NCBI GenBank assembly: GCA_025350105.1
Contig: JANXYJ010000106.1
Location: 1 to 64,000, forward strand
Origin: Terriglobia bacterium
GTDB lineage: Bacteria; Acidobacteriota; Terriglobia; Bryobacterales; Bryobacteraceae
Direction of reading: 5' to 3'
Length of the DNA stretch: 64,000 bases
Shown here: in pieces, positions 3,707-53,981 of the stretch
Position numbering within the stretch: the first letter of the stretch is position 1
Layout: each line of letters opens with the position of its first letter
Translations under genes and position numbers: made by a program
Notes under the pieces: generated by a model
The model's database searches: none
The model's input: only the letters and a program-made list of their open reading frames with translations
Told to the model about the DNA's origin: nothing

Positions 3707-5050
3707 ATGAAACCTGTTCGCTTGATCATTGCCGCGGTTCTATTGGCCGCCTTGGGCGGCGCTTTGTGGTGGTCCAACCGCGATGAAAAAGCCAAAGAGG
3801 GCAAGCCCGCCGCTGACGCCCCGCCGTTCGTTCTTTCCATTAAGCCCGACGAGGTAAAACAATTGACCATCCAGCGTCAAGGCCACGATGCGATCACCGT
3901 TGTCTTCAACGACAAAGGCAAATGGGACATCACCGCTCCCAAGCCATATCCGGCGGACGCGACGGCGGTGGCGGCGCTCACCAGCGGAGTTTTTGAGCTG
4001 CCCAGTGAACGCGTCATCGATCCTAATGTGACGGACCTGGCGGCATATGGATTGGCGCCGGCGTCTCTCGAAGTTGATGTTACGAACAAAGGGGGCAGGA
4101 CATCGAAGTTGCTGATCGGCGAAAACACGCCTACCGGCAACGCGGTGTACGCCAAAGTGGAAGGCGACCCGCGCCTGTTCAGCATGCCCGCGCAACGCAA
4201 AACCACCTTCGAAAAAGAAGTGAACGATTTGCGCGACAAGCGCTTGCTGGTTTTCTCCCAAGACAAATTGACCACCATCGCGGTGCGCACGCCGAAGGGT
4301 GAACGGGAGTTGGCGCGCAACGCCGAAGGCGAATGGCGCATTACCAAGCCGCAGCCGATGCGCGCCGATCAGGATGCGGGCACTGGCTTGATGAACAAAA
4401 TCCGTGAAGCGGTAATGGACCTTTCTGAATCCGATGCCGCGAAGACTGCTGGACTGTTTGCTTCCGCCGCACCGGTTGGGACTGCTACCGTGACGGACGA
4501 AAGCGGCCCCAAGACGTTGGAGATTCGCAAAAACAACAACGCCTATTACGCGAAATCCAGCACGCTGAATCAGATCTACAAAACGTCCAACGACGTGGGC
4601 GCGGAATTCGAGAAATCGTTGGAGGCTTACCGCAACAAGAAAAGTTTCGATTTTGGCTTCAACGATCCTACACGCATCGAAGTGACTGACGGCGCCAAGA
4701 ACGTGATTCTGGACAAGAGCAACACGGGCAAGGACGACAAATGGCTTTCTGCGGGGAAGACCATGGACACTACCAGCGTCCAGCAGTTCATTGACAAATT
4801 GCGTGACCTGACGGCGGCGAAGTTTGTGAGCGCCGGGTTCACCACGCCGGCGTTCACGGTATCGGTCACCTCCGGCGGTGGCAAGCGCAAAGAAAAAGTT
4901 GAAATTTCCGAACCAAGCGCGGATCATTTCATTGCCCGCCACGATGGCGACGCAGGCTTATACGAACTGGACGCAAAAGCCGTGAAAGACCTGCGCCAAG
5001 CCGTAGGTGACATCCGCGAAGAACAGAAGGCTGCGGCGGCAAAAAAGTAA
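3707..5050 (+). CDS. DUF4340 domain-containing protein
   Basis: Signal anchor and DUF4340-type sequence (AAYGLAPASLEVDVTNKGGRTSKLLIGENTPTGNAVYAKVEGDPRLF) directly after the GldG-like gene. Confidence 0.8.
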   Translation: MKPVRLIIAAVLLAALGGALWWSNRDEKAKEGKPAADAPPFVLSIKPDEVKQLTIQRQGHDAITVVFNDKGKWDITAPKPYPADATAVAALTSGVFELPSERVIDPNVTDLAAYGLAPASLEVDVTNKGGRTSKLLIGENTPTGNAVYAKVEGDPRLFSMPAQRKTTFEKEVNDLRDKRLLVFSQDKLTTIAVRTPKGERELARNAEGEWRITKPQPMRADQDAGTGLMNKIREAVMDLSESDAAKTAGLFASAAPVGTATVTDESGPKTLEIRKNNNAYYAKSSTLNQIYKTSNDVGAEFEKSLEAYRNKKSFDFGFNDPTRIEVTDGAKNVILDKSNTGKDDKWLSAGKTMDTTSVQQFIDKLRDLTAAKFVSAGFTTPAFTVSVTSGGGKRKEKVEISEPSADHFIARHDGDAGLYELDAKAVKDLRQAVGDIREEQKAAAAKK

Positions 5051-5090
5051 TTCCCCGTTCGCCTGCCTCATTCGCGGCTACGATAGAGAA

Positions 5091-6458
5091 ATGACAGGTG
5101 AGGGCTCCTTGGGCGAGCGGCGCAGCGCGCTGATGACGGATCTGTATCAGCTCACCATGGCGGCGGGCTATTTTGAATCCGGTAAAGCGCAAGAACGCGC
5201 CACGTTTGAATTGTTTGCGCGTCGGTTGCCGCACAATCGCAATTTCATTTTGGCGGCGGGCTTGCAGCAGGCCGTGGAATATCTGCTGGGGTTTCGCTTC
5301 ACCAAGGATGAAATCGCCTACCTGAAAGAAATTCCCCAGTTCAAAAACGCCAGCCCTGCGTTTTTCGCCATGCTGGCCGATTTGCGTTTCACCGGCGATC
5401 TGTTTGCCGTTCCCGAAGGCACGCCCCTGTTTGCGGGGGAGCCATTCCTCACCGTGCGCGCTCCCGTGATTGAAGCGCAAATTCCGGAAACATATTTGTT
5501 ATCGACGATTGGTTTTCAATCCTCCATCGCCACCAAAGCCGCCCGCGTGGTCAGGGCCGCCATGGGGGCCAGCGTTGTCGAGTTCGGGTCTCGCCGGGCG
5601 CAGTCGCCGGAAGCGGGCGTGCTGGCTGGCCGCGCGGCCTACATCGGCGGCTGCGAAGGCACCAGTAACGTGGAGGCCGGTTTTCGCTATCGCGCCCACG
5701 TATTCGGCACCGCCGCGCATTCCTGGGTGATGTCCTTCGCCAGCGAGCGCGCGGCATTTGAGCAACTGCAAAAGCTACTGGGCGACAGGACCACTTACTT
5801 GATCGACACCTACGACACCCTGGGCGGCGCCCGCTTGGCTGCCGATTTAGGCCGCCCCCTGTGGGGCGTGCGTTTGGATAGCGGCAATTTTTTTGACCTG
5901 GTGCCCGCCGTGCGCAAGATTTTGGACGACGCCGGTCTGCAGGACGCTAAGATTATGGCCTCCGGCGATCTGAATGAGTTCAAGATTCATGAGCTGGTGG
6001 CCGCCAAAGTTCCCATTGACGTTTACGGCGTGGGCACAGACCTGGCGACGTCATCCGACGCGCCATCGCTCGCCGTAGTCTATAAGATGGTGGAGTTGGA
6101 CGGAGCCGGCGGCCATCGCTATACGGCAAAATTCAGCGTCGATAAGCAGTCCCTGCCGGGAGCAAAACAGATTTTCCGTTATGCGACGCACGACGTGCTG
6201 GGGCGCTCCGGCGAGTGCCTCTCTTGTGGGCCGGGCGATAGCGGCGATGTCGAAGCCTTGCAGCGGCCCGTGATTCTGAACGGGAAACTGCTGGAAACGC
6301 TGCCGAAAATTGGCGCCATCCGGCAGGCGGCGGCCAAGCGTCTGGCGAATTTGCCCGCGCCTTGCCATAGTTTGTTCGCGGCCGCCGACGGTTGGAGAGT
6401 GGAGCTGAGCGCGGAGCTGAAACAATTGGACGAGCAGGTGCGGGAACGGAGAATGTAA
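5091..6458 (+). CDS. pncB: Nicotinate phosphoribosyltransferase
   Basis: LMTDLYQLTMAAGYFESG, SRRAQSPEAG, GVRLDSG, IMASGDLNE: NAPRTase motifs; ATG 28 codons downstream of the ORF-track start. Confidence 0.92.
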   Translation: MTGEGSLGERRSALMTDLYQLTMAAGYFESGKAQERATFELFARRLPHNRNFILAAGLQQAVEYLLGFRFTKDEIAYLKEIPQFKNASPAFFAMLADLRFTGDLFAVPEGTPLFAGEPFLTVRAPVIEAQIPETYLLSTIGFQSSIATKAARVVRAAMGASVVEFGSRRAQSPEAGVLAGRAAYIGGCEGTSNVEAGFRYRAHVFGTAAHSWVMSFASERAAFEQLQKLLGDRTTYLIDTYDTLGGARLAADLGRPLWGVRLDSGNFFDLVPAVRKILDDAGLQDAKIMASGDLNEFKIHELVAAKVPIDVYGVGTDLATSSDAPSLAVVYKMVELDGAGGHRYTAKFSVDKQSLPGAKQIFRYATHDVLGRSGECLSCGPGDSGDVEALQRPVILNGKLLETLPKIGAIRQAAAKRLANLPAPCHSLFAAADGWRVELSAELKQLDEQVRERRM

Positions 6459-38464: not shown

Positions 38465-39313
38465 CTATACAACGACAGCCGAAGACTTTTTATTCGAGTG
38501 GCCGGCGTGGCCGCCACTGGAGAATTGTTTGCTGTGATGCTCCAAAAATTGCAGCACTTCGCGGCGCAGCCGGAAATAATCCGGATGATCCAGGCTGCCT
38601 TCGGCCGAACGCGGCCGTGGCAAAGTGATTTCCAGTTCCAATCCCACGCGCGATTCCGGACCGTCGGTCATCAGAATGATGCGATCGGAAAGATACAGCG
38701 CTTCGTCCACATCGTGGGTGACCATCAACACGGTCTTGCGGTCCTGCTCCCATAGATCGAGAAGCAGGTCCTGCAACTCACGCCGGGTGATGGAATCGAG
38801 CGCGCCGAAGGGTTCGTCCAGCAACAGAAAGCGCGGCTCCAGCGAAAACGCGCGGGCAATGGCCACGCGTTGTTGGGTACCTTGCGAAAGTTCGGTGGGC
38901 CTTTGGTTCGCGTATTCCGTGAGCCCGACCATATCCAGATATTTCGACGCCATGGCCTTTTGTTCACGATGGCCAAGGGCTGGGTGGGCCTGGGAAACGG
39001 CCAGTAGAACATTATCAAGCGCCGTCATCCAAGGCAATAAAGACGGGGTCTGGAACACCAGCGCCCGCTCCAGGCCCGGACCTTCAATCTCTTTGCCATC
39101 GACGATCACGCCACCTTCGCTGGCGCTGGAAAGTCCGGCGACGATGGCCAACACGGTGGATTTCCCGCAGCCGGAATGCCCCAACAGCGAAACAAATTCG
39201 CCGGGTTGAATCAGCGCGCGGAAGTCCTTCACGGCCACGTGCGGGCCAGAGGGCGTGGGAAACACTTTGGTGAGTGAGGTAATTTCTAGCGGACGCTGGG
39301 TTGTCATTGTCAT
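38465..39313 (-). CDS. Nitrate/sulfonate-type ABC transporter ATP-binding protein (NrtD/NrtC-like)
   Basis: LLGHSGCGKSTVLAIVAGL, LSQGTQQRVAIARAF, LLLDEPFGALDS. Confidence 0.9.
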   Translation of the reverse strand: MTMTTQRPLEITSLTKVFPTPSGPHVAVKDFRALIQPGEFVSLLGHSGCGKSTVLAIVAGLSSASEGGVIVDGKEIEGPGLERALVFQTPSLLPWMTALDNVLLAVSQAHPALGHREQKAMASKYLDMVGLTEYANQRPTELSQGTQQRVAIARAFSLEPRFLLLDEPFGALDSITRRELQDLLLDLWEQDRKTVLMVTHDVDEALYLSDRIILMTDGPESRVGLELEITLPRPRSAEGSLDHPDYFRLRREVLQFLEHHSKQFSSGGHAGHSNKKSSAVVV

Positions 39314-39319
39314 GCTTCG

Positions 39320-40177
39320 TCATGCCTCTAGCGGAACGCTTACCGATTGCAAATGGCTCACCGGAGCCCGCCGGCGCACGCCGGAAGACAGGAATCCTGT
39401 AAGCCGCGCGCGAATGCGCACCGCGTCTTCGCTGCCGGTCATCAGATCGGCGGGACGGGGCCGGGGGAAGGGAACGTCGACGCCATCGCTTAGGGTCGCC
39501 GCTGGGCTTTCTCCCCTATTTCCGTTGCGCCCTAATGTCAGAATGCGGTCAGAGAGTAGAATGGCCTCGTCCACCGAGTTTGTGATCATCAATGCGGTGG
39601 CGGCAGGCTTACGCAATTGGCAAAGCTGCGCCAATTCCTGTTGCAGAGTTTGCCGCGTGAGTGCATCCAACGCTCCGAACGGTTCATCGAGAAACAAAAT
39701 TTCTGGTTCGACGGCGAACGCACGAGCAATTGCAACGCGCTGGCGCATCCCGCCGGAGAGTTGGCTGGGCCGCTTGGCCATGGCTTTACCTAGGCCCACC
39801 ATTTGTAAATAACGTTCGGCTTGTTCCTGGTGGCGTGTCGCGGTCCATTCGGGGAACCCGCTCTCCACGGCCAAGATCACGTTCTCCAGCGAACTGAGCC
39901 AGGGCAGCAGGGAATAGTTTTGAAAGACGATCGAGGCGCGATGAGGGAAGCCGTTCAGGGCCTCCCCGTTGGAGAGTGCCGCGCCCGAATCCGGCTGAAT
40001 CATACCTGCGGCCATTTTCAGCAGCGTGGTTTTGCCGGACCCGGACGCACCGACGATGGACACGAATTCGCCCTCCTGTACCGCAAGGTTGATGTTGGCC
40101 AGCACCTGGCGGGTGCCGTAGCTTTTGTTGGCGTTTTTCAGTTCAATTCGCGTCATATTGATCTCGCTTCGTTGCAC
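39320..40177 (-). CDS. Nitrate/sulfonate-type ABC transporter ATP-binding protein (second)
   Basis: IVGASGSGKTTLLKMAAGM, LSGGMRQRVAIARAF, LFLDEPFGALDALTR. Confidence 0.9.
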   Translation of the reverse strand: MQRSEINMTRIELKNANKSYGTRQVLANINLAVQEGEFVSIVGASGSGKTTLLKMAAGMIQPDSGAALSNGEALNGFPHRASIVFQNYSLLPWLSSLENVILAVESGFPEWTATRHQEQAERYLQMVGLGKAMAKRPSQLSGGMRQRVAIARAFAVEPEILFLDEPFGALDALTRQTLQQELAQLCQLRKPAATALMITNSVDEAILLSDRILTLGRNGNRGESPAATLSDGVDVPFPRPRPADLMTGSEDAVRIRARLTGFLSSGVRRRAPVSHLQSVSVPLEA

Positions 40178-40261
40178 TGGCTGTTGATTTCGCTGGCTTA
40201 TTGGTATCGCTCACTTCATTCGCTGGCTTGTCGATCTTGCTGACTCGCTGGCTGTTTAGCC

Positions 40262-40281
40262 CGAGCGGCCTAGGCCGCTCG
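40262..40281. repeat. 20-bp perfect palindrome (cgagcggcctaggccgctcg)
   Basis: Perfect inverted repeat centred on CCTAGG, spanning the stop codon of the permease gene. Confidence 0.9.
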
Positions 40282-41034
40282 CAGCCTTGTTTCTGCGATG
40301 CCCATCAGACGGTCCAGCGCAAACCCCACCAGGCCGATGGTAAGAATGCACAGCAGGATGTGCGAATAGATCAGGCTGTTGTACTCCTGCCAAAGAAATC
40401 CGCCGACTCCTGGAGTGCCGGTGAGCATCTCCGCTGCGACAATCACCAGCCAGGCCAAGCCCAGGCTTAGCCGGTAGCCCGTGAACATGTAGGGAAGCGT
40501 GGCCGGCAGCAGCACTTTGGTGAACCGCCGCCACGGAGACAAGCGCAGGACCGTGGCCACGTTTAGATAGTCCTGCGGAATGGAACGCACGCCTTGCATG
40601 GTATTGATGACGGTGGGCCACATGGAACACAAGGCGATGGTGAAGAGCGCAGCGGGCTCCGATTGCCGGAACAGAATCAGACCCAGCGGCAACCAGGCCA
40701 GAGGCGAGATGGGCCGCAGAATCTGAATCACCGGATCGAACATTTTCGACAGCAGCAGTGAGTTTCCCAATAGGAAACCCAGCGGCGTCCCGATGAGAAT
40801 GGCCAGGAGGAAGCCTTTGGCGACGCGATACAAACTATACGCCGCCATGCGCAGAATGCCCTGATCCATTTCCCCGCGTTTGTCGAACGGCTGCAGGATG
40901 TAGACCTTGCTCTCCGTCCAGGTTTTGATGGGCGAAGGGAGATCCTTGGAAATCGTCGTGCTAACCAGCGCCCACAGCCCCACAACCAAAGTGGCGCCGA
41001 CCAGGGAGAGTGCGAAGTTTTTCAAAAGATTCAT
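40270..41034 (-). CDS. nrtB: ABC transporter permease, NrtB/SsuC-like
   Basis: PISPLAWLPLGLILFRQSEPAALFTIALCSMWPTVINTMQGVRSIPQDYLNVA (NrtB-type). Confidence 0.88.
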   Translation of the reverse strand: MNLLKNFALSLVGATLVVGLWALVSTTISKDLPSPIKTWTESKVYILQPFDKRGEMDQGILRMAAYSLYRVAKGFLLAILIGTPLGFLLGNSLLLSKMFDPVIQILRPISPLAWLPLGLILFRQSEPAALFTIALCSMWPTVINTMQGVRSIPQDYLNVATVLRLSPWRRFTKVLLPATLPYMFTGYRLSLGLAWLVIVAAEMLTGTPGVGGFLWQEYNSLIYSHILLCILTIGLVGFALDRLMGIAETRLRAA

Positions 41035-41045: not shown

Positions 41046-42311
41046 TTAGGCCTTCAGGTTGTGAATGGGAAAGCTCTTCGCATAAGCCGCCGCGTTTTTG
41101 GGATCGAACACGCCATCGGTAAGTTTCGCGGGGGCCAGATCCTTGACCGTTACTTTTACGCCCATGCTTTTCATGGCCGCTTCGTAAAGATCGGGACGCA
41201 GAACCTTCTCTGATACACCTTTGTAGTCCGGGCCCGGTTTCACCATGCCCCAACGTTCAAACTGCGTCATCCACCAGTAGCCGAAGGTGCGCGACGGGAA
41301 GTTGCAATTGCGCTGGGAGAAGATCATGTAATTGGGATCCTGCTCCTTGCGCCCATCGCCGTAATCGTATTTTCCCTGCAAACGATCCAGGATGATTTCC
41401 TTTGGACAATTGATGTAGGCCGGCCGCGAAACCACTTCCGCGACATTGGGCCGGTTGTCCATCTTGTCGATGTATTCGCTCGCCAGATGCAGTGCCTGCA
41501 GGATGGCGGTCACGGTTTTAGGATTCTTATCGGCAAATTCCTCGGTGAACGCGCAGACTTTTTCCGGGTGATCGGGCCACATCTTTTGCGTGGTGATGAC
41601 GGTATAGCCCACATCGTCGGCGATGGCCCGCAGATTCCACGGCTCTCCCACGCAGAAGCCATCCATCTTACCCACTTTCATGTTGGCCACCATTTGCGCC
41701 GGTGGAATGGTGATCAGGCTGATGTCCTTATCCGGATGGATGCCGCCGGAAGCCAGCCAGTAGCGTTCCCACATGGCGTGCGTGCCGGGGGGAAAGGTCA
41801 TCGCAAAAGTGAGCGGCGAGCCGGACGCTTTGGCTTGATCGGCGAACGGCTTCATGTCCTTGGCCGTTTTCACTTTGCCCTTGAATTTGTTAGCCAACGT
41901 GATGGCTTGGCCGTTGCGGTTGATCATCCAGGGAATCACCATCGGTTTCACGGGCGAACCCAGTAAACCCATCGTGGAAGCGAACGGCATACCGATCAGC
42001 ATGTGCGTGGTGTGATTTTCGCCGATGGAAAGCTTGTCGCGAATGGCGGCCCACGACGCTTCCTTCGAGATCACCGATTCTATGCCGAACTGCTTGAAAT
42101 AGCCCAGTTCGTGCGCCATTACGATGGAGGCACAATCGGTAAGCGCGATCATCCCGAAACGTACTTTCGGCGTTTCCGGCGCGTCGCTGGCGTAGGCCGT
42201 GCCCATCCACCCCTTGGGAAGGCCAGCCAACAACGTACCCAATGCTGTCTTCTTCAGAAACTCTCTGCGTTTGGTTTGCCCGTGTTTGGTTTGCCCGCGT
42301 TTGGTTTGCAT
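41046..42311 (-). CDS. nrtA: Nitrate-binding ABC substrate-binding protein, NrtA/CmpA-like, Tat signal
   Basis: RREFLKKTALGTLLAG; PKVRFGMIALTDCASIVMAHELGYFKQFGIE; MDGFCVGEPWNLRAIADDVGYTVITTQKMWPDHPEKV. Confidence 0.92.
   Translation of the reverse strand: MQTKRGQTKHGQTKRREFLKKTALGTLLAGLPKGWMGTAYASDAPETPKVRFGMIALTDCASIVMAHELGYFKQFGIESVISKEASWAAIRDKLSIGENHTTHMLIGMPFASTMGLLGSPVKPMVIPWMINRNGQAITLANKFKGKVKTAKDMKPFADQAKASGSPLTFAMTFPPGTHAMWERYWLASGGIHPDKDISLITIPPAQMVANMKVGKMDGFCVGEPWNLRAIADDVGYTVITTQKMWPDHPEKVCAFTEEFADKNPKTVTAILQALHLASEYIDKMDNRPNVAEVVSRPAYINCPKEIILDRLQGKYDYGDGRKEQDPNYMIFSQRNCNFPSRTFGYWWMTQFERWGMVKPGPDYKGVSEKVLRPDLYEAAMKSMGVKVTVKDLAPAKLTDGVFDPKNAAAYAKSFPIHNLKA
42267..42311. repeat. 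15-bp coding tandem repeat x3 at the nrtA start
   Basis: gcgtttggtttgccc/gtgtttggtttgccc/gcgtttggtttgcat; encodes MQTKRGQTKHGQTKR. Confidence 0.95.
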
Positions 42312-42446: not shown

Positions 42447-43799
42447 TTAATCGCTCATCGCGCCGGCGGGCTCCAACGAAGGCGCCAACACCGAGGCCAA
42501 CCGCGCGTCGATTTCAGCCTGTGCCACTTCTTCCTCTTGTTCGGAGAAACGGACGCCGAATACCAGAACGGAAACCACGCAAACCGTGGCGCCCAGCACC
42601 AACAGCACTTGGGTCCAGGGCATGGCGCCCTTGAACAAGAATCCGGCCAGCACCGAACCAACGTTGCCGCCCGCGCCGACGATGCCCGCCACCGCGCCCA
42701 ACGCTTTCTTGTTGACGAACGGCACCAGCGCATAGGTGGCTCCGTTGGACATTTTGATGAACAGCCCGGTGAGCATCATGGCCGCGATGGCGAAGGGCAG
42801 GAGGCGCATTTGCGAGAACAGCATCAGGGCCAGACCTTCGGCGCAAATGGTTACACCCAGCAGCATGGCGCGTCCACGCAGACCCCATTTTTGATGAAAG
42901 CGATCGCTCACCATGCCGCCCAGGGCACGGGCAAAAAGATTCATCATTCCGAAAGACCCGGCGACGATGCCCGCCGCCGTCAGCGCCAAATGGAAGTAAT
43001 CGGTGAAGTACAACGCCGCGATGTTGTCGATGGTCAACTCCATGCCAAAGCAAGCGCCGTAGATTACGAACAAGGCCCACACACGGGGGTCGCGGCAGGC
43101 CATGGCGAAAGCCCCGCCGGCGTTGGATTTGGTGGACATGGCGCCGCGAGCGCGCAGTTCTTTGAAGTCGCCATCAGCGGTGTCTTTGGTTAGTTTGTAG
43201 TAGGCGATGCCGGCCAGCAACATCATCACGCCGGGCACAAACATGGCCAGCCGCCAGCCTATGGCTTTGCTAAAACCCAGGCTGATAAATCCCGCGAATA
43301 GCAGCGGCATTACCATTTGTGTGACGCCGCCACCCAAGTTGCCCCAGCCGGCGGTGGTGGCGTTGGCGGTGCCCACGATGTTGGGCGCGAACATCACCGA
43401 GGTATGATACTGCGTCACGACGAACGACGCGCCAATGGCCCCGATGGCCACGCGGAAAATCAAAAACGTGGTGTAGTCATGCGCCAAACCCACGGCCATC
43501 ACCGGCAGCGAACCCAAAATCAACAACCAGGTATAGGCGCGGCGCGGACCAATATGATCACACAGCCAGCCAATCAACAAGCGAACCAGTACCGTAATCG
43601 CCACCGAGGCGATGGTGAGGTTGCCGATCTGAGCTTTGGTTAAATGTAGTTCCTGGCGGATCACCGGCATCAACGGAGCCAGGCCAAACCAGCCAAAGAA
43701 GCACAGAAAAAACGCCATCCACGTCATATGGAAGGCGCGCATGGACGGGCTGGAAAAATCGTTTAGACGGATGCGGGTTGCTTTATTCAGAATATTCAC
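42447..43799 (-). CDS. NarK/NasA-family nitrate/nitrite MFS transporter
   Basis: FHMTWMAFFLCFFGWFGLAPLMPVIRQELHLTKAQIGNLTIASVAITVLVRLLIGWLCDHIGPRRAYTWLL; GNLGGGVTQMVMP; GTG start with a nearby SD. Confidence 0.93.
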   Translation of the reverse strand: MNILNKATRIRLNDFSSPSMRAFHMTWMAFFLCFFGWFGLAPLMPVIRQELHLTKAQIGNLTIASVAITVLVRLLIGWLCDHIGPRRAYTWLLILGSLPVMAVGLAHDYTTFLIFRVAIGAIGASFVVTQYHTSVMFAPNIVGTANATTAGWGNLGGGVTQMVMPLLFAGFISLGFSKAIGWRLAMFVPGVMMLLAGIAYYKLTKDTADGDFKELRARGAMSTKSNAGGAFAMACRDPRVWALFVIYGACFGMELTIDNIAALYFTDYFHLALTAAGIVAGSFGMMNLFARALGGMVSDRFHQKWGLRGRAMLLGVTICAEGLALMLFSQMRLLPFAIAAMMLTGLFIKMSNGATYALVPFVNKKALGAVAGIVGAGGNVGSVLAGFLFKGAMPWTQVLLVLGATVCVVSVLVFGVRFSEQEEEVAQAEIDARLASVLAPSLEPAGAMSD

Positions 43800-43988
43800 G
43801 AAAGTCAGTTCTCCTTGGGTTCGACTGCAGGGTCTGCACACGCACATTGGCTCCAACAGGGAGATTATTCAGAACCACTAGGGGACACCCGTTCGCATCC
43901 GCTCAGTTGACTGTGGCGATCGGACGAAGATTGAATCTGACGAGGATGATCAAACACGCCTCACACGGGGAGGCCAGACAAACAAAAA

Positions 43989-44342
43989 CTAAGCTGCGGC
44001 GTCTTCGTAGGCTTTACGCGCGCCGGCCAGATCTACATAAATCACGCCACCTTCCACCTTGGTCGGATACGTGGCGACGCAAGCCGGTTCAGTAGCACGC
44101 ACAGCCATGCCGGTTTCCAGATCGAAGCGCCGCGCATGCAGCGGACACACCACGCTGGTGCCGGAGACGATGCCATCGCACAATGGCCCGCCCTTGTGCG
44201 GACACTTGTTTTCGATGGTGAGGTAGCGGCCGCCAATATTGAAGATGGCGATCTCCTGGCTGCCTGCGTTGACGGCGCGGCCTTCGCGCGGCGGAATATT
44301 TTCTACAGGCGTGATGGCGGTCCAAATAATTTGGTCGGTCAT
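43989..44342 (-). CDS. nirD: Nitrite reductase small subunit (Rieske)
   Basis: Small Rieske-fold protein with CPHKGGPLCDGIVSGTSVVCPLHARRFDLETG. Confidence 0.93.
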   Translation of the reverse strand: MTDQIIWTAITPVENIPPREGRAVNAGSQEIAIFNIGGRYLTIENKCPHKGGPLCDGIVSGTSVVCPLHARRFDLETGMAVRATEPACVATYPTKVEGGVIYVDLAGARKAYEDAAA

Positions 44343-46810
44343 ACGGAAGCCTCTATCCTCATTGCTGGATTTTGCAGCGGCTCAATCTGCACGAATTGCG
44401 TGGGATTCACTGGATTCTCACCTTCGGTCCAGGCATCCTTCGATAATTTTTTGGAGCGCGCCAGCCGTTCCAGCAAATCTCGCTTTTCGGCATCCGGCGC
44501 GTAGACGGTGTCTTTACGAATTTTTTCTATACCAAGGCGCTCCACGAAATCGTAGGTGCGTTCCAAGTAATTTGCGTTTTCGCGGTAGTACTGGAAGAAC
44601 AGGTCGCTGGCCTCCAGCGCTTGTTCGGTCGTTTCCACGGTGATCAATAAATCGGCTTTGCGTACTGATTTCCCGGCCGCGCCTCCCACCACCACTTGCC
44701 AGCTGCCTTCCTGGCCGATCAAGCCTAGATCCTTCACCGTCGCCTCCGCGCAATTGCGCGGGCAGCCCACCACACCCATTTTGTATTTGTGCGGAGTGAA
44801 TAGATTTTCCAGACGCCGTTCCAGTTCAATGCCGGCGCTAGTGGAATCCTGCACGCCGAAGCGGCAGAACTGGGTGCCCACGCAGGTCTTCACCATGCGC
44901 ACGCCTTTGGTATAGGCCTGACCCGAGGGCATGCCCAGATCTTTCCAAACGCTGGGCAGATCTGCTTTCTTGATTCCCAGCAAATCGATGCGCTGGCTGC
45001 CGGTGACCTTCACCATCGGTACGTTATATTTGTCGGCGACGTCGGCAATGCGCCGCAGTTCATCCGGTGTGGTGACACCTCCGCGCATGCGCGGAATCAC
45101 CGAAAACGTTCCGTCTTTCTGAATGTTGGCGTGCACCCGGTCATTAATGAAGCGCGCCGAGCGATCCTCTTCATGATCGCCGCACCACAGCATATCCAAC
45201 ATGTAGCTGAGGGCCGGCTTGCACACTTCGCAACCTTTGCGGTTGCCGTAAACGGTGAGCACTTCTTCCACGGACTTCAGCTTTTGACCTTTGATGATGT
45301 CGCGCAGTTGTTCGTAAGAAAACGGTACGCACGCGCACATCGTCGTGCGGGTTTCTTCCTGGAAATTCGGCGTTACCGCGCGCAGTAGCTTTTCGCACAG
45401 GCCAGTGCAGGTTCCGCAACTTGTCGAGGCGCGGGTGCGTTCCTTCAATCCCGCCAGCGTTGTGATGCCGTGTTTGTGAATCGCCTGCACGATATCGCCC
45501 TTGCGCACGCCGTTGCAGCCGCAAATGGTTTCGCTATCGGGCATGGCGGCCACTTCCAGCCCGGGATCGGCGTCCCGCGGCGGAAACAGAATCGTGCGGC
45601 GATGCGGCGTCAGATCGGTTCCACCGCGCATCCAATCCAGGTATTGGTGTTCGTCTTCAATGTCACCAACCAGGATCACGCCCTGCAGTTGATTGTCTTT
45701 GATCAGCAGCTTCTTGTAGACGCCCAGCGAGGGATCCTCGTACTTCACCTCTTCCACACCGGGTTGGCCGGCGTGGATGGAGCCTGCGGAGAAAATATCC
45801 ACGCCCATGATCTTCAGCTTGGTGGAGGGCGAAGCTCCTTCAAATGTTTGCGTGCGCGTACCGTTGAGTGTGGACGCCAGCACGCGGCCTTGTTCAAACA
45901 GGGGCGCCACCAGGCCGAACGTCTGGCCGCGATGTTCAGTGCATTCTCCCACCGCGAAAATATGCGGATCGGAGGTCTCCATGTAGTCGTTGACGATGAT
46001 GCCACGGCGGGTATCCAGACCCGCCTGCTTGGCCAGATCGGTATTGGGGCGAATGCCGGCGGCAAGAACCACCAGGTCCGCTTCCAATTCTTCGCCTGAC
46101 GCAAATCGCAGACCGTCCACCCGCCCGTTGCCAAACAGCGCCGCGGTTTGTTGCGGCAGCATCACTTTAATGCCCAGGCTTTCGATTTTGCGCTTCAGAT
46201 ATTCGCCGCCGGTGGCGTCCAACTGGCGGTCCATCAGCGTTTCCATCAAGTGAACCACGGTGACGTCGCAGCCGCGCACCTGCAATCCGCGCGCGGCCTC
46301 CAGGCCCAGAAGTCCGCCGCCAATCACCACCGCTTTCAAGCCCGGTCGCGCTTTTTCGAGCAGCGCACGCGTGTCGTCCCGCGTACGGAACACATGAACG
46401 TTCTTTTTCTCCACACCAGGAATGGGGGGGATGAACGCGCTGCTGCCGGTGGCCAGAATCAGTTTGTCGTATTCGGTGACGCCGCCGTCTTCGTCAATCA
46501 CCCGGCGGTTTTCACGGTCGATGCGGGCAATTTTTACCCCCAAACGCGCGCGAATACTGTTGTTTTGATACCACTCAATATCATTGATGACAATTTCTTC
46601 GGGCGATTTTTCCCCGGCCAGCACCAGCGACAAAAGAATGCGGTTGTAGTTGACGTGGGTTTCATCGCCGAAGATGGTGATGTCGAAATCGTGCGGCTGC
46701 TTCAGGATCTGCTCGACGCAGGAAACGCCGGCCATGCCATTGCCGACCAGCACCAGCTGCTGAGTTCGGCCCCGGCTTTGGTCAAGGGTTTGATCCATTT
46801 GCTCGCTCAT
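44339..46810 (-). CDS. nirB: Nitrite reductase large subunit (NAD(P)H, siroheme)
   Basis: LVLVGNGMAGVSCVEQIL; BFD cysteine motifs; siroheme/4Fe-4S motif VGTQFCRFGVQDS...VGCPRNCAEATVKDLGLIG. Confidence 0.95.
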   Translation of the reverse strand: MSEQMDQTLDQSRGRTQQLVLVGNGMAGVSCVEQILKQPHDFDITIFGDETHVNYNRILLSLVLAGEKSPEEIVINDIEWYQNNSIRARLGVKIARIDRENRRVIDEDGGVTEYDKLILATGSSAFIPPIPGVEKKNVHVFRTRDDTRALLEKARPGLKAVVIGGGLLGLEAARGLQVRGCDVTVVHLMETLMDRQLDATGGEYLKRKIESLGIKVMLPQQTAALFGNGRVDGLRFASGEELEADLVVLAAGIRPNTDLAKQAGLDTRRGIIVNDYMETSDPHIFAVGECTEHRGQTFGLVAPLFEQGRVLASTLNGTRTQTFEGASPSTKLKIMGVDIFSAGSIHAGQPGVEEVKYEDPSLGVYKKLLIKDNQLQGVILVGDIEDEHQYLDWMRGGTDLTPHRRTILFPPRDADPGLEVAAMPDSETICGCNGVRKGDIVQAIHKHGITTLAGLKERTRASTSCGTCTGLCEKLLRAVTPNFQEETRTTMCACVPFSYEQLRDIIKGQKLKSVEEVLTVYGNRKGCEVCKPALSYMLDMLWCGDHEEDRSARFINDRVHANIQKDGTFSVIPRMRGGVTTPDELRRIADVADKYNVPMVKVTGSQRIDLLGIKKADLPSVWKDLGMPSGQAYTKGVRMVKTCVGTQFCRFGVQDSTSAGIELERRLENLFTPHKYKMGVVGCPRNCAEATVKDLGLIGQEGSWQVVVGGAAGKSVRKADLLITVETTEQALEASDLFFQYYRENANYLERTYDFVERLGIEKIRKDTVYAPDAEKRDLLERLARSKKLSKDAWTEGENPVNPTQFVQIEPLQNPAMRIEASV

Positions 46811-49050
46811 GAATTGGCTCCTGCATGCGCCAGCGTCTTCTCCACGCGCACCGCGCATTGTTTGTAATTGGGCTCGCGCGAGATGGGATCGAAGGCATCC
46901 TGCGTCACTTCATTTACGTTGGTCTCGGCGAAATGAAACGGCATGAAAACCTGGCCCGGCGCGGTGATTTCGGTTAGGCGAAGTTCCACTCCATGAATCC
47001 GGCCACGGCGCGAAACCACGTCGATCGATTGATGGCTGTGCAAGCCCAGCTTCTTGGCATCGCGCGGATTCATCTCGAGCCACGCCCTTGGCGAAAGACG
47101 CTCCAGGATGGGAACTTCCTTGGTTTTGGTGCGCGTGTGCCAGTGCTCCACGGTGCGGCCGGTATTTAAGATGAAGGGATACTCGCCGCCCGGTTGTTCT
47201 GGAAACGGAGCCCACTCCGTGCACACCAGTTTGGCTCTGCCATCGGCAGTTTGAAATTGTCCGTCGGCATACAATCGTGAAGTCGCTACCGGCGCCGCGC
47301 CTTCGGTGAGCGGCCACTGCACGGCACCGTGCTCCGCCAGCATGTGATAGTTGATGCCGGAGTAATCGCACAACCGGCCTTTCGAAACCAGCCGCCATTC
47401 GTTGAAAGCGTCTTCCACTGTCTTCCAGCCCGGATACAACTCTTCACGCATCCCTAGCTTCTCAGCCAGTGCCAGAAAAATATCGAAATCCGAACGCGCC
47501 TCACCCACCGGCGTCACGGCTTTGTTCACCTTGCTCACGCGGCGTTCGGAGTTGGTGTAGGTGCCTTCCTTTTCTCCCCAGATGGCCGCAGGCAGAACCA
47601 GATCGGCCAGTTCGGTTGTCGGCGTGGGATGATAGCCATCCTGGACAACCAGGAAATCCAGATTGGAAAGCCCGTTGCGCAGCACATCCTGATTGGGATA
47701 GGAAACCAGCGGATTGGTAGCGATGATCCACAGCGCGCGAATCTTTTTCGCGACGGTGGCTTCAATGATGTCAGGATAGGCCAAGCCGCGTTGCGCCGGC
47801 AATCGAGATTCATGGATGCCCCAGATGCTGGCAAGCTCCGCGCGGTCTTCGGAATTATCAAATTTGCGGTAGCCCGGCATACTGGATGCGAAGCCCGCTT
47901 CGCGCGTACCCATGGCGTTGCATTGGCCGGTGATGGAAAATGGCGAGGCGCCGGTGCGGCCAATTTGCCCGGTGAGCAGCGCCAGATTGCAGATCGCATT
48001 CACTGTGGCCGTGCCCAGGGTGCTGTGATTCACGCCCATGGTCCAGCCGATGAAGCCCGCTTTGGCCCGTCCGTATAGAAACGCCGTTTTGTGCAGCACA
48101 TCCAGACTGATGCCGGTAATGTTTGAAACGTACTCCGGCGTATATTTTTCCAGAAATGTTTCGAGTTCCGCGAACCCTCTGGTGTGCGCGGCCACATATT
48201 CGCGGTCGATCAGGTTGTAGCTGATCAATATATGCGCGATGCCGTTCAGCAGCGCCAGGTCCGAACGCGGTTTCAATGGCAGATGAATATCGGCCATCAT
48301 GGCCGTCTTGGAGACGCGCGGATCGGCCACAATCACTGTTTTCTGCTGGCGATTCGCTTCCAGATATTGGCACAGAATCGGGTGGTTGTCGGCTAAATTG
48401 GCCCCGATCAGCAGCACGACGTCGGCGCGTTCCATATCTTCGTACGCACCAGGAGGCCCATCGCTACCGAAAGAAATCTTGTAGCCCGAAACGGCGCTCG
48501 CCATGCACAACGTCGTATTGCCGTCGTAGTTGTTGGTGCCCAAACCCAACTGCACCAGCTTTCCCAGCGTATAAAACTCTTCGGTGACCAATTGCCCGGT
48601 GCTTAAAACACCCAGTGCCTCCGGCCCGTATTTGGCTTGCGTCGCGCGGAAGCGTTCGGCCATCACCGTCAACGCTTCATCCCAGCTCACCCGCACCAGT
48701 TTCCCGTCCTTACGGAGCAGCGGGTATTTCGCGCGATTGTCTGTATCGATAATGTAGTGTTCCGAAAGGCCCTTAGGACACAGCTTGCCTCGGTTTACTG
48801 GATGCGCGGCATGGGGTCGCGAAGCAATGGCCTTGTCGTCCTTCACACCAATTTCGATACCGCAACCAACCGAACAATAGCCACAAGTGGTGGGCACCCA
48901 ATGGTCCGGAATCTTTTTCGCCGACGTGTAGCCCGTGGATTCGCTGCGCGCGAAGGCGTACTCTTCTTTCAAGGTATCCAGACCCAGAACCCGCAGTAAG
49001 TTCAAACCGCCGCTTTTCGGGCTGCCACTTTTCAAACCAACGTTCTTCAT
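46807..49050 (-). CDS. nasA: Molybdopterin nitrate reductase catalytic subunit (NasA/NarB-like), no obvious Tat signal
   Basis: TTCGYCSVGCGIEIGVKDDKAI...GKLCPKG; FIGWTMGVNHSTLGTATVNAICNLALLTGQIGRTGASPFSITGQCNAMGTREAG. Confidence 0.93.
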   Translation of the reverse strand: MKNVGLKSGSPKSGGLNLLRVLGLDTLKEEYAFARSESTGYTSAKKIPDHWVPTTCGYCSVGCGIEIGVKDDKAIASRPHAAHPVNRGKLCPKGLSEHYIIDTDNRAKYPLLRKDGKLVRVSWDEALTVMAERFRATQAKYGPEALGVLSTGQLVTEEFYTLGKLVQLGLGTNNYDGNTTLCMASAVSGYKISFGSDGPPGAYEDMERADVVLLIGANLADNHPILCQYLEANRQQKTVIVADPRVSKTAMMADIHLPLKPRSDLALLNGIAHILISYNLIDREYVAAHTRGFAELETFLEKYTPEYVSNITGISLDVLHKTAFLYGRAKAGFIGWTMGVNHSTLGTATVNAICNLALLTGQIGRTGASPFSITGQCNAMGTREAGFASSMPGYRKFDNSEDRAELASIWGIHESRLPAQRGLAYPDIIEATVAKKIRALWIIATNPLVSYPNQDVLRNGLSNLDFLVVQDGYHPTPTTELADLVLPAAIWGEKEGTYTNSERRVSKVNKAVTPVGEARSDFDIFLALAEKLGMREELYPGWKTVEDAFNEWRLVSKGRLCDYSGINYHMLAEHGAVQWPLTEGAAPVATSRLYADGQFQTADGRAKLVCTEWAPFPEQPGGEYPFILNTGRTVEHWHTRTKTKEVPILERLSPRAWLEMNPRDAKKLGLHSHQSIDVVSRRGRIHGVELRLTEITAPGQVFMPFHFAETNVNEVTQDAFDPISREPNYKQCAVRVEKTLAHAGANS

Positions 49051-50579
49051 GCTGCCGCCCTTTCCGATGACGTAAACGCCGCCGCCATGTTCTTGGGAAC
49101 CACGCTGATGAAGAACAGAAACCGGCCCAGCCATTCCCCGCCCAGCGCCAAGACAAACGCCAGTGCGATCACCCAGCCGCGCGTGCCCATTACGGGGATC
49201 AGGATGCCTGCCACCACCAGGATCGCCAGCCGGGTCACGAATAGATTCTGCAATCGCCCGGAGAGGAGTAACGACGACGCCCTTAGTTCAAACACATCGG
49301 TCCGCGAAAGCCATAAAAATTTCAAGGCCTGCGTTGTTAACTGTGCGCCCCCGCCCGCTGCGGCCGCATACAAGACCCATGAACTGGGTGCCAGCAGCGA
49401 AACAAACAAAGGACCCAGCAGCAGCGCCGTGGAGAAAAACTCCGCGATGGTGTACGCGGTGCACCAAGCCGGCCGCGCTTTCACCATATAGATGCGAGCG
49501 GAACTGGTGACACCCGCAATGCCGGCCAGCACTGTCATCAACCCGGCGGCGCCCCGCCCAGGTAAATCGAACAGCAACATGCCGGCGAACAGGCTGGCGG
49601 CTCCGGCGAAAAGCGAAAGCGTCAACACTTCACGGCTCAACCAGGAACGGCGCAGACCTTTTAAAGCGCGCCATGCGTAAATCGGCCGACCCAAATGCAG
49701 CGTCGAAGCACCTAAACTGATGCCTGCCAGAGTAAGTGATGCCAGCGCGCCAATCTTCAAGTCCGCAGCCTTGCCCAGGAAATCGCGTCCCAGTAAATCC
49801 AGCAACCACAAAACCGCGAACGCGCCCACCGAAAGCTGCGTCAGCACCAACATAAAAACCAAAGGCCAGTGCGGATGTTCCGGTTCCACGCGCTCTAAAT
49901 CCACGCGGCCGGTATCGGGAACCATGTTTTCCGGCAGTGTCACGCGGGTGGTGGAGATGCTATCGTCCGCCGAGGGCAGGCCCGGCGCATTCGCGGAAAG
50001 ATAATCGCGGCGCCAATCCGCAATGTTTACAATCTCAATCGCGATGGCCCCTTCCGGGCACGCACCCACGCACGCCGGAGCCACTCCATCACTCAAACGG
50101 TTGTGGCACATGTCACACTTGCCCACCACGCCACGCTCCGCATTGTACTGCGGCACGCCGTAGGAGCAATTCCAGGTACAGTACTGGCAACCAATGCAGG
50201 CATCGGCGCTATGCAGCACCACGCCGGTGTTGAGATCTTTAGTGTAAGCTTCCGTTGGGCAACCAATTAGGCAGGATGGCTCCACACAATGGTTGCAGCC
50301 CATCGAAAGATAATGGCGCTGCGTATCTGGATAGTAACCACCTTCTATTTCACCCACCCGGCGCCAGTTGATCGCCGCCGGATTGCCGTTTTGTTCGTTG
50401 CAGGCCACTACGCAGCATTTGCAGCCAATGCACTTCGTCATATCGAAGTGAAAACGGTATTGTTCACCGGCTTCCAGTCCGCGTTCTGGAATCAGCCGGT
50501 GCGGTTCTGCTTCCAGTTGCACCAAACCTTTCGGCGCCATTGAAAGCAGCGAACTGTCCATTAGTGGAAGGGTAGTCAT
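49047..50579 (-). CDS. Fused DmsB (4x[4Fe-4S])-DmsC membrane anchor-like subunit
   Basis: CIGCKCCVVACNE, CNHCVEPSCLIGCPTEAY, CIGCQYCTWNCSYG, CDMCHNRLSDGVAPACVGACP, then ~8 hydrophobic helices of DmsC type. Confidence 0.88.
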   Translation of the reverse strand: MTTLPLMDSSLLSMAPKGLVQLEAEPHRLIPERGLEAGEQYRFHFDMTKCIGCKCCVVACNEQNGNPAAINWRRVGEIEGGYYPDTQRHYLSMGCNHCVEPSCLIGCPTEAYTKDLNTGVVLHSADACIGCQYCTWNCSYGVPQYNAERGVVGKCDMCHNRLSDGVAPACVGACPEGAIAIEIVNIADWRRDYLSANAPGLPSADDSISTTRVTLPENMVPDTGRVDLERVEPEHPHWPLVFMLVLTQLSVGAFAVLWLLDLLGRDFLGKAADLKIGALASLTLAGISLGASTLHLGRPIYAWRALKGLRRSWLSREVLTLSLFAGAASLFAGMLLFDLPGRGAAGLMTVLAGIAGVTSSARIYMVKARPAWCTAYTIAEFFSTALLLGPLFVSLLAPSSWVLYAAAAGGGAQLTTQALKFLWLSRTDVFELRASSLLLSGRLQNLFVTRLAILVVAGILIPVMGTRGWVIALAFVLALGGEWLGRFLFFISVVPKNMAAAFTSSERAAA

Positions 50580-50888: not shown

Positions 50889-52670
50889 TTGCAACTTACA
50901 ACTCTTGATTGGGCCGTGGTCGCGTTGTATTTCCTTTTTAATCTTGGTATTGGGCTGTATTACAAGGCCCGGGCCGGGTCCAGCGTGGATGAATTTTTTC
51001 TGTCTGGCCGTAACATTCCCTGGTGGCTGGCCGGCACATCCATGGTGGCGACTACCTTCGCGGCGGACACGCCACTGGCCGTAACGGGCTTGGTGGCGAC
51101 GGGCGGCATCGCCGGGAATTGGTTCTGGTGGTGCTTCGCGGCAAGCGGTATGCTGACGGTTTTCTTCTACGCTCGCCTGTGGCGGCGCAGCGGCGTGATG
51201 ACCGACATCGAGTTTTCGGAAATCCGCTACGCCGGCCGCCCTGCCGCTTTCCTGCGTGGTTTCCGCGCGCTGTATTTAGGCATCCCCATCAACTGCATCA
51301 TTCTGGGCTGGGTGAACAAGGCCATGGTGGACATCCTCACGTTGATTTTGGGCGTGACCAAGTTGCAGGCCCTGATGATTGTGTTGGTGATGATCGCGCT
51401 GACGTCGTCCATTTCCACGCTTTCGGGATTGTGGGGCGTGCTGGTTACGGACGTGTTTCAGTTCATTGTAAAAATGGGCATGGTGATTGCGCTGGCCGTC
51501 TACGCGGTGCGCGCGGTGGGCGGCATTGACGCGATGAAAGCCAAGCTGTTGGTGGTTGACGCTGGCCGGGGAGGACAAGGTTCGGTTCTCGACTTCTTCC
51601 CCAATCTGAATTCCGCGCATGAGCTGGCCTGGATGCCGGTGATCACTTTCTTTGTTTATATTTCGCTGAACTGGTGGGCCACCTGGTACCCGGGAGCCGA
51701 ACCCGGCGGTGGAGGCTACATCGCCCAGCGCATGTTTTGCGCCCGTGACGAAAAACATTCCTTGTTGGCCACGTTGTGGTTCAACGTAGCGCACTACGCC
51801 GTGCGCCCGTGGCCCTGGATTCTGGTGGCGCTGACTTCGCTAATACTTTTCCCCGGCCTGAAAGACCCCGAAACCGGCTACGTCCGCGTGATGATCGCTT
51901 ACCTGCCGCCGTCGCTGCGCGGGCTGATGGTGGCCGCCTTCGCGGCGGCATATATGTCGACGATTGCGACGCAGCTCAACTGGGGCGCCAGCTATCTGGT
52001 GAACGATTTCTATCGCCGCTTCGTGAAACCCAGCGCGCCAGCGAAACATTACGTCACGGTTTCACAACTCGCGACAATTTTGCTGACGCTGGTCTCCGCC
52101 GTGGTCACCTTTTATCTGGACTCGATCGCTGAAGCCTGGAAATGGCTGGTGGTGACGGGCGCGGGCACCGGCAGCGTGCTGCTTTTGCGCTGGTTCTGGT
52201 GGCGCATCAATGCCTGGAGCGAGGTGTCGGCTATGATTGCGGCGTTCGTAGTTTCGCTCACGCTGAAGTTTGGCTTTCACATGAATCTGGACGACCCGCG
52301 CGGCTTCGCCTGGATCATGATCATCACCGTGGCTATTACAACATGTGTATGGCTGACGGTCACTTTCCTCACCGCCGCCGAACCGCAAAGCTTATTGCTG
52401 GCGTTCTATCGCAAAACGCGGCCATCGGTGGGTGGCTGGAGGCCCATCGCGAAACTTGCGCCGGAAATTCAACCGGTAAGCGACGGTCTGCGTAATTTCA
52501 TCGATTGGATCGCGGGACTGGTACTGATCTACGGCATCCTGTTCGGCACCGGCAAAATTCTGCTGCATGAAGTGGGCTTGGGGTTGGCGCTGCTGGTTTG
52601 CGGACTATTGGGCGGCGCGGTGATCTACTTCGATCTGTCGCGCAGAGGCTGGAAAGTAGTCAGCGAGTAA
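50889..52670 (+). CDS. Sodium:solute symporter (SSS) family transporter
   Basis: SSVDEFFLSGRNIPWWLAGTSMVATTFAADTPLAVTG; multiple TM helices; TTG start. Confidence 0.88.
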   Translation: MQLTTLDWAVVALYFLFNLGIGLYYKARAGSSVDEFFLSGRNIPWWLAGTSMVATTFAADTPLAVTGLVATGGIAGNWFWWCFAASGMLTVFFYARLWRRSGVMTDIEFSEIRYAGRPAAFLRGFRALYLGIPINCIILGWVNKAMVDILTLILGVTKLQALMIVLVMIALTSSISTLSGLWGVLVTDVFQFIVKMGMVIALAVYAVRAVGGIDAMKAKLLVVDAGRGGQGSVLDFFPNLNSAHELAWMPVITFFVYISLNWWATWYPGAEPGGGGYIAQRMFCARDEKHSLLATLWFNVAHYAVRPWPWILVALTSLILFPGLKDPETGYVRVMIAYLPPSLRGLMVAAFAAAYMSTIATQLNWGASYLVNDFYRRFVKPSAPAKHYVTVSQLATILLTLVSAVVTFYLDSIAEAWKWLVVTGAGTGSVLLLRWFWWRINAWSEVSAMIAAFVVSLTLKFGFHMNLDDPRGFAWIMIITVAITTCVWLTVTFLTAAEPQSLLLAFYRKTRPSVGGWRPIAKLAPEIQPVSDGLRNFIDWIAGLVLIYGILFGTGKILLHEVGLGLALLVCGLLGGAVIYFDLSRRGWKVVSE

Positions 52671-52708: not shown

Positions 52709-52744
52709 GTGGCCGTTGGAGCTACCGTGGCCGTCGGAGCTACT
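52709..52744. repeat. 18-bp tandem repeat x2 (gtggccgtyggagctacy)
   Basis: gtggccgttggagctacc/gtggccgtcggagctact, running into the stop codon of the - strand gene. Confidence 0.9.
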
Positions 52745-53981
52745 TCTGCCGCAACACCGAAATCACGTCGTCCGCCGTAATCACCCCGGCCAGTTTGCCT
52801 TCTTCGTCGATCACCGGTAGCGCAAGCAGGTTGTATTTGTCGAACATCTCGGTCACCCGCTCCTGCTTTTCGTGAACCGGAACTTCAATTGTCGATTCCA
52901 GCGCCAGTGTCATCAGCAGCGTGCTGCCCTCCTGCAAAAACAGCCGCGCCAAGGGAACCGTGCCCTTCAAGTGATCGACGGAATCCACCAGGAACAGCGT
53001 GTTCAGCGTTTCCAGCAAGTCTTCCTGTTTTTTCAGCGCCACCAGCGCGTCGGCTACGGTCGCCGTTTCCGGCAGCGCCACATATTCGGTGTTCATCAAG
53101 CCGCCGGCCGTGTCCTCGTCGAACTCCATCAGTCCTTCCACATCGTGGGCGGGTTCGTTTTCCATTTCTTCCAGAATTTCGTCGCTGGTGGATTCTTCCA
53201 GTTCGGCCAACACGTCCGCTGCCTGATCGGGAGCCATCTCCTCGACGATCTCCGCCGCTTTTTCAGTTTCGAGAGACTCCAGAATGCTGGCCTGAATATC
53301 GGGATCGATTTCCGAAAGCGCTTCGGCTGCTACCTCGCTGTCGATATTTTCAAAAATCGCCTCGCGGTCCTGTGGACCTAATTCTTCCACAATGTCCGCC
53401 AAATCGGCCGGATGCATGTCTTCCAGCAATTTATTGGTGATGTTCAGGCGCAGGCGCCGCTGCGGGTCTGCCTCCAGAATGTTGCAAAACTCCCAGCGAA
53501 TGGAATTGGGCGGAATCCCAGTTTGAAAGCGCCGGATCCAGCGCGGAGGGACCAAGCCTTGCAAAACCCTGCGAAAAATACTGCGAATGCCGATGTCCAC
53601 TTCCAGCACCCACAGCACGTGAGCGCCGCTTTCCTCGCGCAGTTCAAACGTCACGTCATTCACGCGCACCACTTTGCGTCCTTGCGCGTCGATGATTTGC
53701 TGATCCAGCAAATCCCGCGTCAAACGCAGCATGTACTCATCGGAATGATAGGGAGTGAGGTTTTCGTCCCGCAAGTGAATACCGTTCAGGGCAATGGTTT
53801 TCACCTGATCGTAGCGGACAGTAAGCAGCGTGGAATCGCCGCTGATCAGAAAGCGATCGATGCGGACCGGGTCCACCAATGGGACCAGCGCGGCGTCGCG
53901 AACGACACCGAGCTTGCGCCCCTTAAGGTCGTAGACCCTGAGGCCAAGCAGTTCGGTAAGGAACAGGAACTGGTCCGCCAT
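52740..53981 (-). CDS. PRC-barrel + MgtE N-domain + CBS-pair protein without TM domain
   Basis: LRVYDLKGRKLGVVRDAALV (PRC-like); LLEDMHPADLADIVEELGPQDREAIFENIDSEVAAEALSEID (MgtE_N); two CBS units ending ITADDVISVLRQK; no hydrophobic helices after CBS. Confidence 0.85.
   Translation of the reverse strand: MADQFLFLTELLGLRVYDLKGRKLGVVRDAALVPLVDPVRIDRFLISGDSTLLTVRYDQVKTIALNGIHLRDENLTPYHSDEYMLRLTRDLLDQQIIDAQGRKVVRVNDVTFELREESGAHVLWVLEVDIGIRSIFRRVLQGLVPPRWIRRFQTGIPPNSIRWEFCNILEADPQRRLRLNITNKLLEDMHPADLADIVEELGPQDREAIFENIDSEVAAEALSEIDPDIQASILESLETEKAAEIVEEMAPDQAADVLAELEESTSDEILEEMENEPAHDVEGLMEFDEDTAGGLMNTEYVALPETATVADALVALKKQEDLLETLNTLFLVDSVDHLKGTVPLARLFLQEGSTLLMTLALESTIEVPVHEKQERVTEMFDKYNLLALPVIDEEGKLAGVITADDVISVLRQK

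Follow-up and report, generated by a model that had tools for sequence, protein, structure and literature searches.

A DmsB-DmsC fusion gene overlapping a Nas-type reductase gene

We analyzed a 64,000-nucleotide stretch of DNA (positions 1 to 64,000 of contig JANXYJ010000106.1, assembly GCA_025350105.1; hereafter the window) from a Terriglobia bacterium of the Bryobacteraceae, which carries on its minus strand an operon with the gene order BC fusion, Nas-type reductase, NirB, NirD, NarK, NrtA, and an ABC permease with two ATPases. The first two genes, which are the subject of this study, code respectively for a 510-residue protein uniting a DmsB-type four-cluster ferredoxin domain with a DmsC-type anchor (BC; 49047..50579, minus strand, identified by Pfam, conserved cysteines, an AlphaFold2 (AF2) model and fold matches) and for the 747-residue catalytic subunit of a Nas-type molybdenum nitrate reductase (46807..49050, minus strand, identified by Pfam domains, motifs, phylogeny and fold). 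An initial annotation of the window, made from the sequence alone, had placed the pair at 46807-50579, in agreement with these coordinates. The first three junctions of the operon, read directly from the sequence, are ATGA overlaps of 4 nucleotides. The nearest relatives of both proteins come from metagenome-assembled genomes (MAGs) of Bryobacteraceae, at 86% for the reductase and 81% for BC.

The BC open reading frame (ORF) begins with an ATG at 50579, with an in-frame GTG at 50606 as an alternative start, and ends with a TGA at 49049-49047. The earlier claim that a single ORF joins four DmsB-type motifs to a DmsC-like membrane domain is borne out by Pfam, which finds both Fer4_11 (72.8 bits, residues 98-189) and DmsC (PF04976; 81.7 bits against a cut-off of 22.3, residues 245-405) in the 519-residue BC translation; the top NCBIfam match is TIGR02951 (DMSO_dmsB), whose 152.8 bits are under its cut-off of 214.1. 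The DmsB-like domain (residues 39-190; 50010..50465, minus strand), delimited by its four Cys motifs and by alignment, is predicted to bind four [4Fe-4S] clusters through cysteines 50, 53, 56, 60; 95, 98, 103, 107; 128, 131, 134, 138; and 155, 158, 170, 174. All 16 are kept, each of them in 95-96 of the 96 aligned BC homologues. The DmsC-like membrane domain (residues 238-491; 49107..49868, minus strand), defined by the AF2 model and the Pfam match, comprises eight transmembrane helices (238-262, 271-295, 313-336, 342-364, 375-396, 400-426, 444-464 and 468-491). The model has a pLDDT (predicted local distance difference test) of 77.2, with the membrane helices mostly above 90 and the B domain weaker, and its two parts match the corresponding subunits of one structure, PDB 2vpw: the membrane domain the menaquinone-bound PsrC (TMt 0.78, 3.2 Å over 265 columns) and the B domain the B subunit PsrB (TMt 0.66).

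Alignment with E. coli DmsC further points to a predicted menaquinol site extending from His295 to Glu317 with a strongly basic loop in between (49629..49697, minus strand). These two residues align with His65 and Glu87 of DmsC and are present in 96 of the 96 homologues; in DmsC the residues of the quinone site are Ser62, His65, Ser82 and Glu87, and replacement of His65 abolished quinol oxidation (PMC8076601). In a phylogenetic tree, which has long branches, the BC proteins fall into a single clade (support 100), and E. coli DmsBC and one other sequence lie on the adjacent branch.

The catalytic subunit defines a separate clade of nitrate reductases

The catalytic ORF runs from an ATG at 49050, within the ATGA shared with the BC stop codon, to 46807 and contains the Pfam domains Molybdop_Fe4S4, Molybdopterin and Molydop_binding; no BFD-like or flavin domain was found with Pfam. 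The features on which the initial annotation had relied, namely an N-terminal Cys motif of the NasA/NarB type, the lack of an obvious twin-arginine translocation (Tat) signal and the lack of a BFD-like domain, all hold. The predicted molybdenum ligand, Cys182 (codon at 48505..48507, minus strand), lies in the segment NTTLCMASAV and is followed by a Met as in Nas and Nap enzymes, whereas formate dehydrogenases have Cys or selenocysteine followed by His. The motifs TGQCNAMGTRE and NSERRV likewise agree with Nas, with which the enzyme shares the signature GQ.NAMG.RE. The AF2 model (pLDDT 79.5) has as its top PDB fold match the NapA of D. desulfuricans, with TM (template modeling) values of 0.85/0.88. 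A tree of 89 molybdoenzymes, inferred by a quick method, with several long branches and a reference set without B. subtilis NasC and Synechococcus NarB, was used for coarse placement only; in it the 41 pair-linked reductases form one clade (support 100) within the Nas and Nap nitrate reductases (node support 96-98), and E. coli FdhF, FdnG and DmsA lie outside this assemblage. A DmsA-type identity is contradicted by a score of 168.9 with TIGR02166 (cut-off 777.7). Phylogeny, motifs and fold agree in placing the enzyme among the nitrate reductases, apart from other molybdoenzymes.

The initial annotation overlooked a clade-specific N-terminal extension (residues 1-55; 48886..49050, minus strand), which was recognized in the alignment. 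It places about 50 residues with the conserved pattern R..GLD....YAYA.DP..G..S..K..D.WV ahead of the first Cys motif, and the named Nas proteins with which we compared it (L203, L209, L211 and L208) start almost at that motif. We consider the extension a candidate docking element for BC.

Conservation and phyletic distribution of the pair

When 84,980 species genomes were scanned with the BC alignment, 368 relatives were obtained; in 80 of the best 80, which were kept, the reductase gene immediately follows BC and has the same strand. When an even sample of 297 Acidobacteriota genomes was searched, strong matches to BC (at least 405 bits, the next score being 214) were obtained in 16, and strong matches to the reductase (at least 1015 bits, next score 519) in the same 16. 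The two genes overlap by 4 nucleotides in 76 of 85 homologous pairs. The DmsB-DmsC fusion next to a NasA-like gene is therefore a conserved unit: co-occurrence and overlaps rule out a chance adjacency, and the occurrence of the pair in isolates as well as in numerous independent MAGs rules out an assembly artefact. The isolates are Acidobacteriaceae bacterium KBS 96 (L115), Acidicapsa dinghuensis (L112) and Paracidobacterium acidisoli (L118). The carriers among the best 80 are nearly all Acidobacteriota (Bryobacterales, Acidobacteriaceae, Acidiferrales and one labeled Vicinamibacteria), and the suspicion that related pairs may exist in other phyla is borne out in rare cases; records labeled outside the phylum include a Leptospiraceae MAG (L140) and a Chlamydiae MAG (L143). 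In a second genome of the spirochaete phylum the reductase was found at a contig edge. Two further MAGs, titled Bordetella parapertussis (L096, CALQCC020000004.1) and Acidimicrobiia (L095, VFZE01000034.1), have loci that fall inside acidobacterial diversity, and these records are probably mislabeled or misbinned. The distant matches of the BC search (L047-L062) belong to other systems, in which the A subunits show 23-28% identity and are encoded upstream of BC. A search of plasmid records found no reductase of the pair-linked clade, all matches being below 60% identity.

The nitrite reductase partner varies between loci: it is either NirBD, a fusion of NirB with a Rieske domain (L131), or a NIR_SIR protein of the siroheme type accompanied by a CysJ-like flavoprotein (L034, L112). 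BC is present in every locus examined. The fusion in L131 (6330-9431) is a single ORF of about 1000 residues comprising NirB and a C-terminal Rieske/NirD-like domain, these domains having been checked in L131, and similar ORFs occur in L133, L134, L135 and L138. Adjoining the nitrate and nitrite genes in L034 (14290-16029) and L112 (7686-9350) is a fusion of uroporphyrinogen-III synthase with GAF and ANTAR domains, possibly a regulator joined to an enzyme of the siroheme pathway. Near the L131 locus there is also an ORF of 1104 residues (2798-6112) starting RLGLDLGSNSIGW, which resembles a Cas9-type protein.

Predicted orientation in the membrane

Membrane topology can be read from the positive-inside rule. 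On the B-domain side of BC the loops contain a mean of 16.9 Lys and Arg residues versus 2.5 on the far side, with the same direction of asymmetry in 96 of 96 homologues; loop borders taken from the model, with the linker before helix 1 left out, give 10-14 versus 0-6 in twelve representatives. The proteobacterial DmsC proteins of E. coli, Rhodovastum, Aeromonas, Vibrio, Citrobacter and Klebsiella show the reverse, with 1-4 on the B side versus 8-11 on the far side, and the catalytic gene has a twin-arginine leader in 4 of these 6 controls, the other two being not annotated in the stretch. Reading of the sequences of BC and the catalytic subunit in the window revealed no twin-arginine leader in either. 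Because of this charge asymmetry and the lack of a Tat motif in both proteins, the B domain and the reductase are likely to reside in the cytoplasm. The earlier suggestion of a cytoplasm-facing, quinol-oxidizing system gains support from this reversed asymmetry and from the universal presence of the two menaquinol-site residues, both of which are sequence-based indications.

The operon and its genomic surroundings

The genes downstream of the pair, all on the minus strand, are concerned with nitrite reduction and nitrate import. As the initial annotation had stated, NirBD come next: the gene for the large subunit of NAD(P)H nitrite reductase, NirB (44339..46810; TIGR02374, 920.9 bits), overlaps the nitrate reductase gene by 4 nucleotides and is directly followed by that for the small subunit NirD (43989..44342; TIGR02378, 83.7 bits), both scoring over their cut-offs. 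Further downstream lie genes for a NarK-type nitrate/nitrite transporter of the MFS class (42447..43856; TIGR00886, 294 bits, just below the cut-off of 311.7), an NrtA-like nitrate-binding protein with an NMT1_2 domain and a Tat-type leader (41046..42311; PF13379, 295.5 bits), and an ABC permease with two ABC ATPases resembling NrtB, NrtC and NrtD (38465..41034), which were assigned by sequence and position and whose start codons are uncertain. On the other side of BC, a divergent gene for a sodium:solute symporter (50889-52670, plus strand) marks the boundary of the operon. Adjoining it is a gene (52743-53981, minus strand) for a protein with PRC-barrel, MgtE_N and CBS domains, in which Pfam did not find the MgtE transmembrane domain.

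A proposed route from menaquinol to nitrate and its alternatives

Based on the sequence and structural predictions above, we propose, with a probability of roughly 0.78, that the pair forms a cytoplasm-facing menaquinol:nitrate oxidoreductase serving nitrate assimilation. The initial annotation had arrived at this interpretation, and the evidence favors it over the alternatives considered below. Menaquinol would be oxidized in the heme-free, DmsC-like membrane domain of BC, and its electrons would travel via the four [4Fe-4S] clusters predicted in the fused DmsB domain to the [4Fe-4S] and molybdenum centers of the Nas-type subunit, which would convert nitrate into nitrite on the cytoplasmic side of the membrane. 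NirBD or, in Acidobacteriaceae, the siroheme reductase with the CysJ-like flavoprotein would then turn this nitrite into ammonium. The gene anatomy, conservation and co-occurrence of the pair, the nitrate reductase type of the catalytic subunit, the retained quinol-site residues and the charge pattern are computational results; complex formation, the quinol donor, the direction of electron flow and the assimilatory role are what we infer here. The genome contains a gene of futalosine-type menaquinone biosynthesis; its MenD matches were under the cut-off, and no match to NarG over the cut-off was found in it. With potentials of about -0.07 V for menaquinol and +0.42 V for nitrate/nitrite, the reaction is strongly downhill. 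Given an anchor without heme and a predicted quinol site on the side of the B domain, the step itself is probably electroneutral. Electrons derived from NADH via complex I would conserve energy at that complex, unlike those used by an NADH-linked Nas.

Several observations weigh against this proposal. One concerns the profile scores of the catalytic subunit, which reaches none of the NCBIfam equivalog cut-offs for NasC, NasA or NapA (543.5 against 1100 for NF047855 and 523.7 against 1000 for NF041323, the NasC/NasA equivalogs) and has its top raw NCBIfam score with Fdh-alpha (609.5, cut-off 666). The subunit is a separate clade within the nitrate reductases and, at about half of these cut-off scores, no equivalog of the known NasA or NasC, which qualifies the earlier reading of an assimilatory nitrate reductase. 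The identity as a formate dehydrogenase at which the top score hints is rejected on the basis of the active-site motifs, the tree and the fold. That the enzyme acts on any substrate other than nitrate, be it formate or another oxyanion, is highly improbable: its closest sequence in the PDB is an F420 formate dehydrogenase, but the neighbor of its molybdenum ligand is the Met and not the His of those enzymes, its GQ.NAMG.RE signature is shared with Nas, tree and fold place it among nitrate reductases, and its operon is one of nitrate transport and nitrite reduction.

Another such observation is that an acidobacterial DmsC-type control (L049_C), whose catalytic subunit has a Tat-like leader, nevertheless shows 9 Lys and Arg residues on the B side versus 4 on the other; the charge rule is thus imperfect. 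Finally, it is conceivable that the flavoprotein near the pair in Acidobacteriaceae loci supplies the reductase as well. Known Nas enzymes draw on NADH, ferredoxin or flavodoxin. NasBGC of P. denitrificans takes electrons from NADH (PMC6618116). By this precedent the pair-linked enzyme might be fed by NAD(P)H, ferredoxin or flavodoxin, with BC as a separate quinone-linked protein or with electrons flowing in reverse; we judge this improbable, as the linkage of BC to the reductase is perfect although the nitrite reductase module changes, the reductase has neither a BFD nor a flavin domain, and no other catalytic partner adjoins BC in the operon.

The proposed quinol:nitrate enzyme might instead have a mainly respiratory or redox-balancing role, in which excess quinol electrons are discharged onto nitrate and assimilation is secondary. 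Quinol-linked reductases are usually respiratory, and strain KBS 96, which carries the pair, converted about 3% of nitrate to nitrite with nasA and without Nar or Nap, according to Eichorst et al. 2018 (PMC5900883). The operon's genes for assimilatory nitrite reduction and for nitrate import argue against such a role. So does the anchor, which has no heme and has its predicted quinol site on the side of the B domain, so that an electrogenic loop like that of NarGHI is not expected; the same paper describes anaerobic respiration as untypical of subdivisions 1 and 3 (PMC5900883). We accordingly regard a primarily respiratory function as unlikely.

Relationship to known systems

With NasA, NasC and NarB the catalytic subunit of the pair shares its fold, N-terminal [4Fe-4S] motif, Cys-Met molybdenum site, GQ.NAMG.RE signature, lack of a Tat leader and a place in an operon that includes genes for nitrate import and nitrite reductase; it differs in forming a clade of its own at about 40% identity, in its N-terminal extension and missing BFD or flavin module, and in its linkage to a fused B subunit and anchor, which would stand in for a donor based on NAD(P)H or ferredoxin. 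E. coli DmsABC resembles the pair in its four-cluster B subunit, eight-helix anchor and His65/Glu87 menaquinol site, whereas the pair has fused B and C subunits, a gene order of BC before A, a catalytic subunit of the nitrate reductase type, no Tat leader and a predicted orientation opposite to that of DmsABC. Cytoplasmic molybdoenzymes carried by a B subunit and an NrfD/PsrC-like anchor have a precedent in SoeABC (PMC6335251), and SoeC also carries the His65/Glu87 residues (PMC8076601); however, Soe consists of three separate subunits reported to oxidize sulfite in the cytoplasm, and the catalytic subunit of the pair is of the nitrate reductase type. NarGHI likewise passes electrons from quinol to nitrate at a cytoplasmic active site, as predicted for the pair, but its anchor NarI is a diheme b protein and NarG comes from another branch of the superfamily. 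The fold of the BC anchor and B domain is that of PsrABC, whose PsrC binds menaquinone, while the catalytic subunit and substrate differ and the B and C subunits of Psr are separate chains.

A different Nas-like enzyme, with the motifs NGRLCMVSA and GQGNGQGGREHG, is encoded in two other acidobacterial families, f21 and f23 (L216 2430-9784, G141:C14; L217, G133:C8). Next to it are genes for a ferredoxin-type protein with four clusters, for a small protein bearing a Tat-like leader and for MFS transporters; the set is possibly another uncharacterized nitrate-reductase-like complex.

Evolutionary and biological implications

According to the superfamily phylogeny of Wells et al. 2020, the canonical four-cluster and membrane-anchor subunits accompany none of the enzymes of the FDH/Nas/Aio/Nap clade, for which reason its authors consider a single early origin of the association between catalytic, four-cluster and anchor subunits (PMC7331816). 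The BC-reductase pair is an exception to that statement, and the BC tree with E. coli DmsBC on the same side, is compatible with a later recruitment of a DmsBC-like module. In Eichorst et al. 2018, nasA is listed for several acidobacteria, KBS 96 among them, and the passages found there make no mention of a B or anchor subunit (PMC5900883). We found no paper describing the pair in the open-licence literature searched, and an earlier mention is possible. Annotation pipelines would label the enzyme as plain nasA, thereby overlooking its donor.

On balance it seems probable that the pair is a further architecture of bacterial nitrate reductase, in which a fused DmsBC module facing the cytoplasm links a Nas-type enzyme back to the quinone pool. 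In many soil Acidobacteriota the respiratory chain would then drive the initial step of nitrate assimilation, and energy would be conserved at complex I. The pair could also account for the reduction of nitrate to nitrite by KBS 96 that is reported in the absence of Nar and Nap (PMC5900883). If the proposal is true, acidobacteria, a group abundant in soils, would use menaquinol as the source of the first two electrons of nitrate assimilation; the first electrons for this process would then probably come from the respiratory chain and not, as in known bacteria, from NAD(P)H or ferredoxin.

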